NCBI GenBank assembly: GCA_902599315.1
Contig: CACKEY010000003.1
Coordinates: forward strand, 1 to 64,000
Source of the DNA: an uncultured SAR86 cluster bacterium
GTDB lineage: Bacteria; Pseudomonadota; Gammaproteobacteria; Magnimaribacterales; D2472
Reading direction: 5' to 3'
Length of the DNA stretch: 64,000 nucleotides
The notes under the pieces were generated by a model. That model was not told the origin of the DNA, ran no database searches, and saw only the letters and a program-made list of their open reading frames with translations. A program made the position numbers and the translations under genes. Shown piece after piece: positions 30,791-37,994 of the stretch (positions are counted from its first letter, which is position 1; each line of letters starts with the position of its first letter).

Positions 30791-32743
30791 CTATTTAAAG
30801 TAACTCACTGCATCTTTAGCAGTTTGAGGTAAATAGGCCAACCCATGTTTTGAATCACCAATGGTTTCAACATTTTGAAAATTAGCTTTTGATTTAAACA
30901 CAGCATCAAGTGCAATATCAAACTCTCTCTTTAAGAAGTCCTTTTCAGAAATTACAGGGACTTGATTAGCTAATTCATCTAAAATTTTCCATCTCAATAC
31001 AACCGGCATTGAACCTCCAATGGGCTCACTGTTTTTAACTAAAAAAACATTAATCCCAATTGAGCTCAAAAAAGAGGCTAAATGAAGTTGAATGGTATCT
31101 GTGCCAAGGATGGCACAATCACCATATTTTTTTTCTTTAATGCTATGTTTTATAGAATTAATATCACCATTTGCTTCGATGATAAAGGGTTGCAACCAGG
31201 ATTGAATATTAACAGCGGTAGTAATGGACGCGGAAGGGACGCCCCCTGATGCAATAATAATTTTTTGATCATCTAAAAGCTTCTTTTCAATTTCATCTGA
31301 TGAGATTTCGTTATTTAGATGCAAGTCAATTAATTTATTTTTAACAGAGGCTTGATAATAATTTAATAATTGCCTGTAAGGCTCATAAATTAAAGATGCT
31401 CCAATTAGATTGCCACCAATAAACCCTTGTTTTTCATATATTGAAACCTTTATATTTCTTTTCGCAGCTTGAAGCGCAAGTTCCAATCCAGCAGGGCCGG
31501 CACCGATAATATCTAAGTCTTTTTGAGAAAATTTTTTGTCTTTTTTCCCTAATCCAACATCAGATGCACATACCATTTTTCCATTAAGAAAAATTCTGCT
31601 GACGCACTCATAAGAATATTGGCATGGTTTAATTTTATCTTGTTCGTCATTGATTAATTTATTCGGTAACTCAGGATCAGCCAAAAGCTTTCGGCCCATA
31701 GCAAGAAAATTAAATTTTCCATCTGAAATGTATTTGTCTGCTTTTTGTGGTTCTATTCTGCCCACTGCAATTATTGGAATTTGAACAGCATTTCTTATTA
31801 AACTTGTTACTTTAATAAAACCTTCTTTTTTATGATTTAAAGGAGCTTTTGTAAAATCAGGACCCGACGCAGGATTAGCATAGCTGCTTACATGAATAGC
31901 ATCAATTCTAGACTCTATATGTTTTGCAATTTCGCATACTTCGGTTGAAGTAAGTCCATTTTTAATATTAATCTCCTCACCATCCAAGCGAACAATTACT
32001 GGAAAATTTCTTGGAACCTTTGTTCTAATTGCATCAATAATTTCATCTAGAAGCCTTATTCTATTTTTCAATGAGCCCCCATATTGATCTGTCCTTAGAT
32101 TTGTTGCCCTTGAAAGAAAGCTTGAGATTATGTATCCATGTCCTGCGTGTATCTCAATACCATCAATATTCGATTTGAATGCTCTTTCAGCAGCATCCCT
32201 AAACTGCTCAATTACTTTTTCAATATCTTCTTGATTCATAGCTTTGAAGTTTCCAGCACCCTTCAGATTTGACACAAACTCATTCATTTCAATAGGAGTT
32301 AACTTTTCAACCATGCTTTTTCCATATTCAATGTCTCTAGGAGACATTTCTTTCATTGAAGGAACTAGGAATGGAACACCAATAGATGCAGCATATGCAG
32401 CTTTTGAGCCTCCATGCTTAATTTGGGCAATTACTTTGCAATTGTTTGCATGCATTAACTTTACAAATTTCTTATATTTTTCTATCAAACTATTAGTTGC
32501 TAGAGATAACTCAAGCGGAGTAGCTTGTCCTGCTGGTCTGCTGATACCAACTGAGCCAAGGATTATTCCAGCACATCCTCCTTGGGCTCTGGCAAGAAAA
32601 TAACTTTCTTGTTTTTTTGAGATTGAGCCATCTTTATTACAAAGATTATCTCCCATAGGAGCTAGCAAAATTCTATTTTTAAATTCAAGCTCATTAATTT
32701 TGAATGGAGAAAATAATGATTTATATTGTTGGGTAGTTTTCAT
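30791..32743 (-). CDS. Old-yellow-enzyme/2,4-dienoyl-CoA reductase-like flavoprotein with an altered Fe-S motif
   Basis: 650 residues. The N-terminal TIM barrel (about 1-370) has OYE/FadH signatures: 'FKNRILLAPMG', 'GIEIHAGHGYIISSFLSRATNLRTDQYGGSL' and 'VIVRLDGEE'. The C-terminal Rossmann domain starts at 'LDIIGAGPAGLELALQAAKR'. In FadH the linker binds a 4Fe-4S cluster through C-x2-C-x3-C-x11-C. Here only C374, C380 and C392 remain ('KPCQYSYEC…MVC') and the second position is not cysteine, so the cluster may be absent or changed. It probably reduces an enone or enoyl-CoA; substrate unknown. Its start codon is 14 nt from that of the divergent SnoaL-like gene. Confidence 0.85.
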   Translation of the reverse strand: MKTTQQYKSLFSPFKINELEFKNRILLAPMGDNLCNKDGSISKKQESYFLARAQGGCAGIILGSVGISRPAGQATPLELSLATNSLIEKYKKFVKLMHANNCKVIAQIKHGGSKAAYAASIGVPFLVPSMKEMSPRDIEYGKSMVEKLTPIEMNEFVSNLKGAGNFKAMNQEDIEKVIEQFRDAAERAFKSNIDGIEIHAGHGYIISSFLSRATNLRTDQYGGSLKNRIRLLDEIIDAIRTKVPRNFPVIVRLDGEEINIKNGLTSTEVCEIAKHIESRIDAIHVSSYANPASGPDFTKAPLNHKKEGFIKVTSLIRNAVQIPIIAVGRIEPQKADKYISDGKFNFLAMGRKLLADPELPNKLINDEQDKIKPCQYSYECVSRIFLNGKMVCASDVGLGKKDKKFSQKDLDIIGAGPAGLELALQAAKRNIKVSIYEKQGFIGGNLIGASLIYEPYRQLLNYYQASVKNKLIDLHLNNEISSDEIEKKLLDDQKIIIASGGVPSASITTAVNIQSWLQPFIIEANGDINSIKHSIKEKKYGDCAILGTDTIQLHLASFLSSIGINVFLVKNSEPIGGSMPVVLRWKILDELANQVPVISEKDFLKREFDIALDAVFKSKANFQNVETIGDSKHGLAYLPQTAKDAVSYFK

Positions 32744-33306: not shown

Positions 33307-33888
33307 TTAAATAAGTTGGGTCAGTTCTCTAAAATGTTTTCTACATAATACCTTGTATGAATCATTGCCACCAATTTTAATTTGATCGCCATCTTTAACA
33401 ATTTTTCCATTTTCATCTAATCTGATTACCATGATTGCTTTTCTTCCACAGTGACAAACTGTTTTTAATTCAATAAAGTTATCTGCTAATGCAAGTAATT
33501 CAGAGCTTCCTTCAAAAAGATTGCCCTGAAAATCAGTACGAATTCCATAACACATTGCTGGGATGTTCAGCTCATCGCTTACTTTACATATTTGCCTAAT
33601 TTGTTCTCTTGATAGAAATTGAACTTCATCAATTAAAATACAACTAATTGATTGAGCTAACTGTTTTTGAGAAACATAATCAAAAAAATTGAAATTAACA
33701 TCAACTGAAACAGCATCAGCTTCTAAACCAATTCTAGAGTGAATTTTTCCATTATTTTTTTCTGCATCAATTTTAGGAAGAAATAATAAAGTCTCCATTC
33801 CTCTCTCGTGATAGTTATAATTAGATTGAAGCAAGGCAGTAGACTTGCCTGCATTCATGGTTGAGTAAAAAAAGTGAACTTTTGCCAA
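33307..33888 (-). CDS. tdk: Thymidine kinase
   Basis: A 193-residue type II thymidine kinase for salvage of thymidine to dTMP. Walker A 'YSTMNAGKSTALLQ' (about residues 8-21), Walker B 'CILIDEVQFL', the 'CYGIRTDFQG' segment of the lasso and the zinc-binding cysteines/histidines of 'CHCG' and 'LCRKHF' are present. It starts 3 nt after the stop of the Rieske-like gene, so it may be carried on the same transcript, although the functions look unrelated. Confidence 0.96.
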   Translation of the reverse strand: MAKVHFFYSTMNAGKSTALLQSNYNYHERGMETLLFLPKIDAEKNNGKIHSRIGLEADAVSVDVNFNFFDYVSQKQLAQSISCILIDEVQFLSREQIRQICKVSDELNIPAMCYGIRTDFQGNLFEGSSELLALADNFIELKTVCHCGRKAIMVIRLDENGKIVKDGDQIKIGGNDSYKVLCRKHFRELTQLI

Positions 33889-33891
33889 AGA

Positions 33892-34893
33892 TTAGTTTTG
33901 CAATGGCACAGAATAAAACTGACTAACCCATTTACGAAATTTGTTGATTGGACCATCTCCATCGCAAAGAATAGGATCCGAAACATAGCTTTTATTATCC
34001 CAGATAGGCATATCATCTAATACTCCATTTGCTATGCCATCTATAATTGCCATTCCAAGTTCATCTTCGATGTCTTTAGACACCCTCATTGACCATCGAA
34101 GAATTGAATTAGAATTATCCACTGGGCATGAAGCGTTTACCATGATGAACTCACCGCCACTTGGTGGCAGATTAACCATCTTTAATCCTACAGTTCCTAG
34201 CCCCCAAGACTCTCTAGTAAAAGTTGTGGTAAACATGTCATGATTCTCGACTTTGTATTCTTCTGAAACGCTATCATTGTTAGGATCCATTAATGTTTCA
34301 GCAATTGTCTTTTTATAAATACCTTCAGTAATAGCTTCAGTTTCAGGGAGGCTTGGTGAACCATGTACTTTAGGAAAGTGAGCCTGATCAACATCATTTT
34401 CAGCAATTTCCTGTAACACAGTATTGATATTGTAATCGTAATGATGAACTTTCCCCCATTTTTCATCATCACCATTAAAGCCCTCTATAAGAGGAACTTC
34501 CCATTGAGGTGCCTCTTTATTGAGATGATGCCATGCCCAAATAAAACCATTTACATCTACAACAGGGTAACTGAATATTTTTAAATCTTTGGCAGATTCT
34601 GGCACGCTACTATCTGAAGCAATGTCAGCACATGATCCAGAAATATCCCATTTGATTCCTTGCTTAGGACATGAAAGCGTTTCACCTTCAACCTTGCCAC
34701 TCAATGCTAGATTTATACCTGAATACCCGCAATAAGCGTCCAAAACTCCAATTTTTCCAGATTCTGTCCTGAATGCAGCTATGTCATTTTCACAAAATTT
34801 AACGGACTTAACTTCACCGTTTTTTAGTTCGTGACTTCTTAGAACACAAAACCAACCATCAGGCATTGGGAATGGAAACTCTTGTTTTGGCAT
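33892..34893 (-). CDS. Rieske-type ring-hydroxylating oxygenase-like protein lacking both histidine ligands of the [2Fe-2S] cluster
   Basis: 333 residues related to KshA/VanA-type oxygenase alpha subunits. The Rieske domain (residues 12-125) keeps both cysteines, C55 and C75. However, the CxH motif reads C-G-Y57 and the CxxH motif reads C-P-K-Q78, so both His ligands are replaced. The codons are unambiguous. The catalytic domain is intact: 'ENDVDQAHFPKVHG' provides D169, H172 and H177, and the C-terminal 'ADxPIW…FRKWVSQFY'-like end (here DDMPIWDNKSY) is present. It could be a non-Rieske cluster protein, use another electron route, or be a regulatory or partner subunit. It is divergent from the ADC-SDR-P450 operon and followed by tdk. 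Confidence 0.8.
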   Translation of the reverse strand: MPKQEFPFPMPDGWFCVLRSHELKNGEVKSVKFCENDIAAFRTESGKIGVLDAYCGYSGINLALSGKVEGETLSCPKQGIKWDISGSCADIASDSSVPESAKDLKIFSYPVVDVNGFIWAWHHLNKEAPQWEVPLIEGFNGDDEKWGKVHHYDYNINTVLQEIAENDVDQAHFPKVHGSPSLPETEAITEGIYKKTIAETLMDPNNDSVSEEYKVENHDMFTTTFTRESWGLGTVGLKMVNLPPSGGEFIMVNASCPVDNSNSILRWSMRVSKDIEDELGMAIIDGIANGVLDDMPIWDNKSYVSDPILCDGDGPINKFRKWVSQFYSVPLQN

Positions 34894-35101: not shown

Positions 35102-35869
35102 ATGTCTGAATTAAGATTTGTAAAAACACCAGAACAGTTAATTGAAGCTGCAGAAAATAACTTAGAATTTTTTGATGCAAATATGAATGCAATCAAAGCT
35201 TGGTATCGCACAGAGCCAGGTCTTGTTGAGCAACTAATTCCAGCTCCACTAGAGCCCCATGCAGATCCAATGGTGAGAGTAGTTATTTCGAGAGTGTTTG
35301 TTGATCTTAATGGTGGCATGGATTTTGGTGCTGCTACTTTTGGAGTGAATTGCATGTATAAGGGAAAGGAGGGCATCTATGAGATCACCATGCCAATGGA
35401 AGGAGAAGGAGTTGTAGTTGGTGGAAGAGAAACTTACGGAGAGCCAAAGAAAATTGCAGATGTTACAGCCTCTAAAGATGGAGATGACTGTCTTGCAACT
35501 GTAACCCGGCATGGCATTACTTATCTTGAATTAAAAGGTAAAGCCACAGAAGAATTAGAAACTAGCTCTTTTACAGACGAAGTCTATTGCTTTAAGGTTT
35601 TTCCCTCATGCGAGCAACATAAACCAGTAGATCAAAATCCATTATTAGTAAAAATCAATATGCATAGAACACAGTCAGTTCACATGAAAATAGATGGAGA
35701 AATAATTTTAAGAGAATCTCCAGTTGATCCGGTTGTTGATTTGCCTGTTAAAGAAATGGTTTCGCTTACATGGGAAGAGGGAACTTCTTCTTCAAATGCA
35801 TCTGTGATGGAAGAAGTTGATGCTATGTCTTACATTCCATTCATGCATTCTAGGTACGATTCTGCATAG
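35102..35869 (+). CDS. Acetoacetate decarboxylase family protein
   Basis: 255 residues. The family's Schiff-base site is clear: 'GGRETYGEPKKIAD', with the lysine pair K116-K117 matching the K115-K116 pair of clostridial acetoacetate decarboxylase. The preceding 'GIYEITMPMEGEGVVVGGRE' matches the family's core strand pattern. Family members decarboxylate beta-keto acids or run aldolase/dehydratase chemistry on larger substrates, so acetoacetate itself should not be assumed. Ribosome site AGGGAGAG. First gene of an operon with an SDR (8 nt downstream) and a P450 (14 nt further), which suggests a role in processing an oxidised hydrophobic molecule. Confidence 0.85.
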   Translation: MSELRFVKTPEQLIEAAENNLEFFDANMNAIKAWYRTEPGLVEQLIPAPLEPHADPMVRVVISRVFVDLNGGMDFGAATFGVNCMYKGKEGIYEITMPMEGEGVVVGGRETYGEPKKIADVTASKDGDDCLATVTRHGITYLELKGKATEELETSSFTDEVYCFKVFPSCEQHKPVDQNPLLVKINMHRTQSVHMKIDGEIILRESPVDPVVDLPVKEMVSLTWEEGTSSSNASVMEEVDAMSYIPFMHSRYDSA

Positions 35870-35877
35870 GATATTTT

Positions 35878-36756
35878 ATGAAAGATTTTAATGGCAAGTT
35901 AGCTGTAGTTACCGGTGGTGCATCAGGAGTAGGTTTTGCAATTGGGGAGGCTCTTGCAAAAGAAGGGGCTAAAGTTATTCTTACTGATGTTGAGCAAGAA
36001 AGTCTTGAGGCCTCAACTGCAACTTTAGTTGAACAATCATTGGAAGTTTTTTGTAAAGTTGCCGACGTTTCTGACTCATCTTCAATGCATGAACTTGCAA
36101 AATGGTGCAAATCAGAGCATGGCCCTGTCCACTTACTTTTTAATAATGCAGGAGTTGCACCTGCAGAATTACTTCCAATTTGGGATACAAAACCAAATGA
36201 TTGGCAATGGGCTTATGGGGTAAATGTTATGGGAGTTCTTCACGGGATCCAAGCTTTTGTTCCAGATATGCTTGCTCACGGTGAGGAAGCAAGAGTTATT
36301 AATACCTGCTCTGGCAATGGCGCATTTATAAATCTACCTTCAACACCTATCTATACATCTTCAAAAGCTTCAGTCTCAAGCATTACTGAAGTATTAAAGT
36401 TACAACTTGATCAAGCTGGAGCCAATTTAAAAGTCTCAATTTTATTTCCAGGCCCTCATACAGTTAGAACCAAACTTTTTTCTGCAGAACGTAATCGACC
36501 AGAAGAACTTGCAAGAGATCTAGATGCTCCTGAGCATCCAATATCCTCTGTTGAAGATATGTTAGAGATGATGAGTTCAATGGGCATTGAGATGGAAACA
36601 ACTGAACCAGAGGAAGTGGCCTCATTTTGTTTATCCCAAATTAAATTAGGCAACTATTGGATCAATCCAATTAGTGAGAAAAGTGAACAGGCCTTTAAGG
36701 ATAGAGTGGATTCAATTATCAATAGAAGTGATTTACCCAATCCAAATATTTTTTAA
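35878..36756 (+). CDS. Short-chain dehydrogenase/reductase (SDR)
   Basis: A 292-residue NAD(P)-dependent oxidoreductase. The cofactor motif is 'VTGGASGVGFAIGEAL' (residues 12-27), with D38 of 'ILTDVEQ' suggesting NAD preference. Further motifs are 'NNAGVAP', 'NTCSGNGAF' with the catalytic Ser, and 'YTSSKAS' as the Y-x-x-x-K pair. The C-terminal part is longer than in minimal SDRs and contains an insert near 'HPISSVEDMLEMMSSMG'. It lies between the ADC-family and P450 genes and is probably co-transcribed; alcohol/ketone substrate unknown. Confidence 0.9.
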   Translation: MKDFNGKLAVVTGGASGVGFAIGEALAKEGAKVILTDVEQESLEASTATLVEQSLEVFCKVADVSDSSSMHELAKWCKSEHGPVHLLFNNAGVAPAELLPIWDTKPNDWQWAYGVNVMGVLHGIQAFVPDMLAHGEEARVINTCSGNGAFINLPSTPIYTSSKASVSSITEVLKLQLDQAGANLKVSILFPGPHTVRTKLFSAERNRPEELARDLDAPEHPISSVEDMLEMMSSMGIEMETTEPEEVASFCLSQIKLGNYWINPISEKSEQAFKDRVDSIINRSDLPNPNIF

Positions 36757-36770
36757 AATTTTAATTAAAT

Positions 36771-37994
36771 ATGAACGTACAGACTGTAGACCATTTTTTT
36801 AATCCCTCGTCAAAAGATTTTATTCATGATCCTATTCCTACGCTTCAGAAATTAAGTTCAGAATATCCAATTTCACGCTTCGATCAATGGCAAGCATGGC
36901 TAGTTACTGGTCATGAAAATATACTGAAGTGTCTCTTAGATCCTAGACTGTCTACAGACTTTAACTTGTGGGAGTATGCCCCAGAAAAAAAAGCTATCGA
37001 AGACATGGATCCCTTTGAAAAACTTATGAACAATAATCTTTTCTTTCTAGATCGTAAAAATCATTTGCGATTAAGAAAACTAGCTTTACCTGCCTTTTCT
37101 CCAAGAATCATGGAACAAATGAAAGAGAGATTTACTATTTTAGTCAAGGAAAGGTTTGACGAAATAGGCACTCCTGATTCATTTAATTTTGCTGCTGAGG
37201 TTGCTGAAATAGTTCCCACTCAAGCAATAGCTAGCTTAGTTGGAATTCCAAGAGATAAATTTCCCATTTTTGATTCATTGGCATATGGAGTTGTTAGAGG
37301 CATAAATCCCATGTTAACTCCTGAAGAGAGAAAAGATGCAATCAAGGGAGTGCCGGAAGGCTTAAATCTTTTAAATGAATTAATTGATGAAAGAAGAAAA
37401 AATCCAGGAGATGACTTTTTATCAACCCTAATACTTGCTGAGGATCAAGGCTCAAAACTTTCAAACATGGAAATGTGTGCTCTAGTTGGAGCAGTCCTTG
37501 GAGCTGGCTCTGATACAGCAGTTGATTTACATAGCTATTTAATCAAAACATTACTTCAACACCCGGAGCAATTACAAGCCTTAAAAGATGATGAAAGCCT
37601 TGTTCAAGGAGCAATATCTGAAACACTTCGATATGAATCATCCGGAAAAACAGGATTAGCAAGATATGCCTCTGAAGATGTAAATATTAATGGTTTTGAT
37701 GTTAAAAAAGGTCAAATGGTTCAATTGATAACTAGTACAGCAGGAATGGATTCAAAAATGTATAAAAACCCAGAAGAGTTTGATATTAAAAGAGACCATG
37801 ATAAGAGCATTTCTTTTGGCCAAGGGCCACATTATTGCATTGGCGTTACACTAGTAAGGTCTCAAACAGAGGTAATGTTAAGAGAATTATTTAAACGTTT
37901 TCCAAATATTAGCTTAGGAAATGAGATTGTTTATGATTACAATCATCATAACGCAAGACGCATGGACGTTATGACAGTAAATACTAATTTATAG
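36771..37994 (+). CDS. Cytochrome P450 (bacterial soluble type)
   Basis: A 407-residue monooxygenase. The haem-binding loop 'SFGQGPHYCIG' supplies the axial cysteine C356. The I-helix contains 'GAGSDTAVD' and the K-helix 'ETLRYES' has the ExxR motif. 'LFFLDRKNHLRLRKLALPAFSP' matches the C-helix W/HxxxR region. Such P450s need a ferredoxin and a reductase, neither of which is encoded in this window. It is the third gene of the ADC-SDR-P450 operon. A short sequence 60-160 nt downstream repeats its C-terminal coding sequence in diverged form (see 38057). Confidence 0.95.
   Translation: MNVQTVDHFFNPSSKDFIHDPIPTLQKLSSEYPISRFDQWQAWLVTGHENILKCLLDPRLSTDFNLWEYAPEKKAIEDMDPFEKLMNNNLFFLDRKNHLRLRKLALPAFSPRIMEQMKERFTILVKERFDEIGTPDSFNFAAEVAEIVPTQAIASLVGIPRDKFPIFDSLAYGVVRGINPMLTPEERKDAIKGVPEGLNLLNELIDERRKNPGDDFLSTLILAEDQGSKLSNMEMCALVGAVLGAGSDTAVDLHSYLIKTLLQHPEQLQALKDDESLVQGAISETLRYESSGKTGLARYASEDVNINGFDVKKGQMVQLITSTAGMDSKMYKNPEEFDIKRDHDKSISFGQGPHYCIGVTLVRSQTEVMLRELFKRFPNISLGNEIVYDYNHHNARRMDVMTVNTNL

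Follow-up and report, generated by a model that had tools for sequence, protein, structure and literature searches.

The window analyzed here is the whole 64,000-nucleotide stretch at the start of contig CACKEY010000003.1 (positions 1 to 64,000; assembly GCA_902599315.1) of an uncultured SAR86 cluster bacterium, and the feature considered is a gene for a KshA-type oxygenase with a ligand-poor Rieske domain. The gene runs on the minus strand from position 34893 to 33892 as a single open frame of 333 codons, with an ATG start and an AAGGA stretch a few bases 5' of it, while the plus strand across the same interval is interrupted by stops throughout. Both the Rieske domain PF00355 (49.7 bits, cut-off 20.3) and the KshA_C domain PF19298 (112.5 bits, cut-off 23.3) score above their Pfam cut-offs, the latter placing the protein in the KshA_C family, and the earlier view of an otherwise intact gene holds. 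The closest solved relatives are 3-ketosteroid 9alpha-hydroxylase oxygenases (4qdc, E 4.8e-30; 2zyl, E 2.7e-25), and the protein is not identified as the 4beta-methylsterol monooxygenase SdmA, reaching 65.9 bits against a curated score of 600 for NF052579.

Specifically, where Rieske proteins carry CxH...CxxH, the window oxygenase has C-G-Y and C-P-K-Q. The original prediction, that C55 (TGC) and C75 (TGT) are kept and that Y57 (TAT) and Q78 (CAA) replace the two histidine ligands, is confirmed at the codon level, as is its statement that D169 (GAT), H172 (CAC) and H177 (CAT) are kept. In a phmmer alignment to Mycobacterium tuberculosis KshA (2zyl), these three residues stand opposite Asp178, His181 and His186, and D294 (GAT) stands opposite Asp304. 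Because of this alignment and the roles given to the KshA residues in the accessible part of PMC4064121, D169 is read as the bridging electron-transfer aspartate and not as an iron ligand; the 2-His-1-carboxylate iron site is accordingly assigned to H172, H177 and D294. By domain content and aligned iron site, the window protein is a KshA-type Rieske oxygenase that fails the defining Rieske ligand test. It shares with KshA (2zyl, 4qdc) the two-domain architecture, the KshA_C domain, the aligned iron triad and the bridging aspartate; KshA, however, keeps both Rieske histidines, where the window protein has Y and Q.

Table 1. Features of the window and of other contigs of the same genome that bear on the oxygenase
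Feature	Position	Strand	Basis
Homologue of KshA-type Rieske oxygenases (333 aa); Rieske domain ligand-poor, mononuclear iron site complete	33892..34893	-	Open reading frame (ORF), Pfam, KshA alignment
Exchangeable cassette, codons 45-105, cluster-binding subdomain in its ligand-poor form; limits approximate	34579..34761	-	Identity tables, trees, DNA profiles
C55-G56-Y57, where C-P-H is expected (first ligand pair)	34723..34731	-	Alignment, codons
C75-P76-K77-Q78, where C-P-F-H is expected (second ligand pair)	34660..34671	-	Alignment, codons
D169 (bridging Asp) and iron ligands H172 and H177	34363..34389	-	Alignment to KshA
D294, third iron ligand, opposite KshA Asp304	34012..34014	-	Alignment to KshA
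Thymidine kinase gene (tdk), 3 bases downstream of the oxygenase, beside both forms (20/20 flanked loci)	33307..33888	-	ORF, family match, locus comparison
Divergent acetoacetate-decarboxylase-like, SDR and P450 genes, beside both forms (20, 20 and 19 of 20 flanked loci)	35102..37994	+	Locus comparison
Intact KshA-like oxygenase, contig C5	L008:7434-8432		Rieske-domain search
Split KshA, contig C1: 149-aa Rieske-only frame overlapping a 290-aa KshA_C-only frame	L009:7121-8426		

Comparison across the SAR86 order reveals that this gene is one of two forms of a single locus, and that the difference between them sits in one cassette of about 60 codons, the cluster-binding subdomain (about codons 45-105), which comes in two discrete versions. 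In what follows, G-numbers denote genomes and L-numbers loci or copies; G000 is the window's own genome (17 contigs, 1.44 Mb, 89.8% complete), and C1, C5 and C7 are among its contigs. An orthologue is present in 27 of 203 genomes of the order (E <= 1e-70), and 24 of 25 related loci show 75-100% identity over their best segment. Complete ligand-poor copies occur in nine genomes (G000, G001, G004, G010, G015, G018, G025, G032 and G078) and complete normal copies in 14 (G002, G008, G009, G013, G014, G016, G019, G021, G023, G036, G074, G076, G077 and G170). The partial copies of G003 and G012 start past the ligands and are typed by the cassette tail alone, as ligand-poor and normal type, respectively, and those of G006 and G007 are cut after the cassette, so that their form is not assignable. 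Among 369 genomes sampled evenly from the class, only G000 and G362 matched at E <= 1e-50; the G362 match, at 36-37% identity, is about as distant as the C5-type paralogue, and the G362 copies have intact Rieske motifs.

All nine complete ligand-poor rows retain C55 and eight retain C75 (serine in L027), whereas H57 is absent throughout (tyrosine in eight, phenylalanine in one) and H78 persists in four, position 78 reading Q, Q, H, H, H, N, T, H and S. The bridging aspartate, both iron histidines and the third-ligand aspartate are present in 9/9, and these rows thereby combine an iron site with loss of their own Rieske ligands, the pattern of an NdmC-like oxygenase fed in trans. The loop C-G-Y-S-G-I-N is conserved in eight of the nine; the second ligand loop is variable. 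The check on clade-wide conservation of Y57 and Q78 gives a divided result: what marks the ligand-poor group is the loss of H57 and not Q78, which is found in two of nine copies. Sequencing error is very unlikely because nine of the 27 orthologues, from nine different genomes, carry the same cassette type complete, and a lone decayed copy is rejected, the ligand-poor cassette being common to nine complete orthologues and forming one clade. A novel, conserved cluster ligation, as had been proposed, is not supported: with C75 replaced by serine in L027 and five identities at residue 78, the ligand positions vary within the group, and a shared alternative ligand set is therefore not likely. The looser version of that idea, a non-canonical iron-sulphur cluster held by C55, Y57, C75, residue 78 or others, could appeal to the near-constant cysteines and to a polar residue at position 78 in 9/9 rows (Q, H, N, T or S), but no single ligand set fits, residues 92-100, which are (nearly) fixed in the normal form, vary in the ligand-poor form, and such a cluster is very unlikely.

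The discreteness of the cassette shows in six identity tables, in which residues 45-100 are 30-46% identical between forms and 25-29% identical to the outgroup L032; within forms, the values are 38-98% for ligand-poor and 86-91% for normal copies (L028 table; 50% for L032). The closest cross-form pairs, ligand-poor L051 against normal L058, L059 and L061, share 34% identity in residues 45-100 but 82% in residues 1-44, 88-89% in 101-200 and 98% in 201-333. When nine ligand-poor rows are set against 11 normal rows (L032 omitted), 20 of the 21 fixed differences fall within residues 56-104 and the other at residue 31 (hypergeometric P 8e-18, with the stretch picked post hoc).

Trees of the cassette and of the gene remainder were built from 21 rows, with identical proteins entered once and the later-found L081 excluded. 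The cassette tree unites the ligand-poor copies in one clade (support 100/100), whereas the gene remainder implies three state changes and rejects a single ligand-poor clade (approximately unbiased (AU) test, p 2.7e-6). A tree of five flanking proteins from 20 loci (eight ligand-poor, 12 normal, with the window represented by its 99% relative L043) implies seven state changes, five of them forced by starred branches, and likewise rejects a single clade (AU p 7.6e-107); 421-425 of 500 label shuffles were as low as the observed seven changes. Membership of one clade thus holds for the cassette and fails for the gene remainder and the flanking genes, and because of this discordance the trees strongly indicate that homologous recombination has carried the forms between species, at times taking along more of the gene than the cassette. 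DNA profiles of L045/L050 and L051/L061 show flanks of mostly 84-100% identity and a drop over the oxygenase gene to a minimum of 47-62% in the cassette; in L045/L050 identity is reduced across nearly the whole gene, and therefore more than the cassette can move. The flanks of L056/L055 and L044/L049 are too divergent for bounding a tract.

Selection on the two forms was compared over 35 ligand-poor and 55 normal pairs, with pairs of cassette pS up to 0.05 dropped; the resulting pN/pS values are descriptive, since many pairs approach saturation at synonymous sites and the comparisons are statistically dependent on one another. Mean cassette pN/pS is 0.352 in ligand-poor versus 0.087 in normal copies, and in the catalytic part it is 0.123 versus 0.100. 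The cassettes of the nine complete ligand-poor rows contain no stops and no gaps. Pairwise cassette omega is 0.04 for L001/L015 and 0.09 for L016/L017 (catalytic omega 0.021 and 0.014, respectively) and 0.20-0.26 in the most diverged listed ligand-poor pairs. The ligand-poor cassette is thus looser than its normal counterpart but not neutral, staying in frame with signs of purifying selection, while the catalytic domain retains its iron triad and bridging aspartate and is under about the same constraint in both forms.

These data uphold the earlier judgement that simple decay does not explain the gene. Ordinary decay of a dispensable domain toward a pseudogene would account for the faster amino-acid change in the cassette and for the cassette omega of 0.59 in the very close pair L001/L014, which rests on few changes; it is disfavoured to the point of being extremely improbable, given that copies from two genera share a single in-frame cassette type with a mean pN/pS well under 1 and that the catalytic domain is fully constrained. 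A different possibility is that oxygenation is not the role of the ligand-poor protein, which would instead act as a regulatory or structural subunit, or represent a reduced-activity allele kept at intermediate frequency, for example if running the oxygenase is expensive in certain niches. The scatter of the forms across the tree of flanking proteins, where they cluster no more than shuffled labels do, and a mean cassette pN of 0.237 versus 0.064, about 3.7 times that of the normal form, are compatible with such a role. Against it stand the low catalytic omega values of the two ligand-poor pairs above, the invariant iron ligands and the undamaged cassette, which together leave it improbable.

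Structure prediction of the cluster site bears out a Rieske-like fold and supports no finer geometry. AlphaFold2, given the nine ligand-poor rows only, returned pLDDT values of 66-92 per 10-residue block for the Rieske half (residues 11-120). All 50 listed Foldseek matches are to KshA or other Rieske oxygenases, the majority spanning only about 110-145 columns. The model thereby supports retention of a Rieske-like fold in the ligand-poor form and nothing finer. A retained predicted fold, together with a C-G-Y-S-G-I-N loop kept while the second ligand loop varies, would also suit an enzyme that needs no Rieske electrons: its mononuclear iron might draw straight on a reductant or a ferredoxin, or the reaction it catalyses might require no electrons from outside, and Tyr57 could act as a relay in place of the cluster. 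Such a mechanism is unlikely, however, considering that residues 201-333 of L051 are nearly identical to those of cluster-bearing copies, suggesting the same substrate and chemistry, and that the bridging aspartate is kept in every ligand-poor row.

The search for a partner gene beside the ligand-poor form covered ten window genes, from AlaDH to TBDR, and 25 neighbouring loci. At the 20 loci with a complete oxygenase copy, tdk and the SnoaL-like, acetoacetate-decarboxylase-like and SDR genes occur without exception, and the single locus lacking the P450 gene is cut off. The desaturase gene is found at two loci (L043 and L044), both ligand-poor and close to the window, and is missing from the other six ligand-poor loci, one of which is cut off before its place. 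No partner gene adjoining the ligand-poor oxygenase emerged among these ten window genes; genes particular to the ligand-poor loci of other genomes were not searched. Electron supply by a separate partner, as first suggested, thus remains the best reading, but the nearby P450 and desaturase are poor candidates, the former because it lies beside both forms and the latter because it occurs at just two ligand-poor loci. Elsewhere in the neighbourhood, an OYE/FadH-like gene (window 30791-32743) is 63-98% identical in five of 22 matching neighbour loci and 28-41% identical in the other 17, where a different member of the family seems to occupy the syntenic place.

Further afield, G000 contains four places with a Rieske domain: the window gene, the C5 oxygenase, a protein on C7 that adjoins a cytochrome-b-like frame and was identified by eye as bc1-type, and the Rieske-only frame on C1. 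The last belongs to a split KshA, whose Rieske-only protein matches 4qdc at E 5.9e-33 and whose catalytic frame aligns over residues 63-283 with 4qdc residues 121-354 (E 1.2e-44). The cluster-binding part, ligand-poor in the window gene, is absent from this catalytic frame, whose predicted structure (mean pLDDT 66.2) has KshA as best structural match (E 1.3e-18). The split pair is found in many SAR86 genomes, including G036, from a second family of the order. Its Rieske-only gene is present in 12 of 15 normal genomes (not G012 or G013; G170 not searched), and the C5-type gene in 13 of 15 (not G013; G170 not searched). Both Rieske motifs are intact in all 21 C5-type rows; in the split-Rieske rows the second motif is CPFH in 22/22, the first being kept by construction, since rows were picked by it. 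As a guess at the donor's identity, the split-KshA Rieske subunit and the intact C5-type oxygenase are better candidates than the P450 or desaturase.

Several side observations concern these proteins. The split KshA of G000 follows genes that, read from their translations by eye, resemble a meta-cleavage pathway (hydratase, acetaldehyde dehydrogenase and aldolase). The C5-type oxygenase of G078 (L076:4687-5680) is broken into two overlapping frames, possibly by a frameshift or assembly error. G012 encodes a 108-aa Rieske-only protein (L073:4521-4844) in which the first histidine is also missing (C-P-L; C-P-K-H), near a gene resembling shikimate dehydrogenase by eye. This protein was rejected as a relative or partner: 29 of 34 genomes gave matches, besides G012 only G036 had a strong one (42%), and the weak matches land on the split Rieske protein, the window-type oxygenase or other oxygenases.

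Each subunit of a Rieske oxygenase is normally taken to need its own cluster. The window gene is the ligand-poor form of a dimorphic KshA-type locus, and the proposal favoured here, held at somewhat less than an even bet, is that it encodes a cluster-less catalytic subunit fed in trans. The protein would have no Rieske [2Fe-2S] cluster of its own, and its Rieske-fold domain would now be structural. The mononuclear iron would still activate O2 and carry out the same reaction as the normal form, with electrons supplied in trans by a Rieske protein found with both forms; because ligand-poor copies occur in different backgrounds, this donor would not be form-specific. In G000, the candidates are the split-KshA Rieske-only subunit (C1) and the intact KshA-like oxygenase (C5), and the data do not choose between them, as there is no form-linked site and neither is found in every ligand-poor genome. 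The donor would dock near D169, as the cluster of the neighbouring subunit does in ordinary trimers; in the KshA trimer, according to the accessible part of PMC4064121, one subunit's cluster feeds its neighbour's iron.

By analogy, supply by a Rieske cluster in trans has precedents both within this genome and elsewhere. In the split KshA of G000, the catalytic KshA_C subunit lacks the cluster-binding part and an intact Rieske domain is encoded by the neighbouring gene; that part, however, is missing there and ligand-poor in the window gene, which has no adjoining Rieske-only gene. In Micromonas chlorophyllide a oxygenase (CAO), one chain reportedly carries the cluster and the other the iron. 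The accessible text of PMC9615114 presents this enzyme as a Rieske oxygenase in two polypeptide chains and describes no two-form locus or retained dead domain. NdmC of the caffeine N7-demethylase NdmCDE is a non-heme iron oxygenase without its own Rieske cluster, with which the additional Rieske cluster of the reductase NdmD is postulated to align (PMC4408171, in part). The window protein keeps the whole subdomain as a ligand-poor, exchangeable cassette; NdmC, according to the literature, does not.

A number of observations weigh against supply in trans and the exchange history attached to it. No partner emerged: there is no Rieske-only gene beside the window oxygenase and no covarying donor site. 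Both candidate donors occur alongside both forms, and in the 10 ligand-poor genomes (55-90% complete, one at 92%) the split Rieske-only gene is present in eight (not G003 or G015) and the C5-type gene in nine (not G001; as two frames in G078). Sites tracking the form in the split Rieske, split catalytic and C5-type proteins amount to zero fixed differences, counted over 8/11, 7/12 and 8/12 ligand-poor/normal rows, respectively, with columns containing any gap skipped and some rows short; both G074 pieces entered the catalytic set, and G036, genomes of unknown form and missing rows were dropped. The chief obstacle is retention of the whole Rieske subdomain, unlike in the split KshA, which might block the dock for an outside Rieske protein. 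The predicted catalytic half has pLDDT values of about 25-37 in most blocks after residue 140 (overall mean 47.8), probably because just nine close rows were given, and low catalytic pN in ligand-poor lineages could be helped by recombination with normal copies. Finally, the cassette tree has long branches (L029, L032, L051 and L027), and the case for exchange comes from trees and identity profiles.

SAR86 is thought to attack steroid-like compounds, and kshA is named in part of one SAR86 family, with no detail on its Rieske site (PMC11582366, in the portion available). Among the matches listed in the open literature, with most subscription journals outside its scope, there was no report of a two-form locus or a split KshA. 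A broader and more doubtful extension of supply in trans is that SAR86 maintains a long-lived trans-species polymorphism, in which a recombination-moved cassette switches the oxygenase between self-sufficient and donor-dependent electron supply while the catalytic domain stays unchanged. If true, nature would have in the cassette an interchangeable unit for connecting oxygenases to one electron donor or another. A ligand-poor form that is under selection, keeps its iron site intact and is exchanged with the normal form across species offers a natural experiment on outside cluster supply and could help in wiring oxygenases to chosen electron donors. It also hints at a balance, so far unexplained, between two forms of one enzyme in SAR86, an abundant ocean clade.
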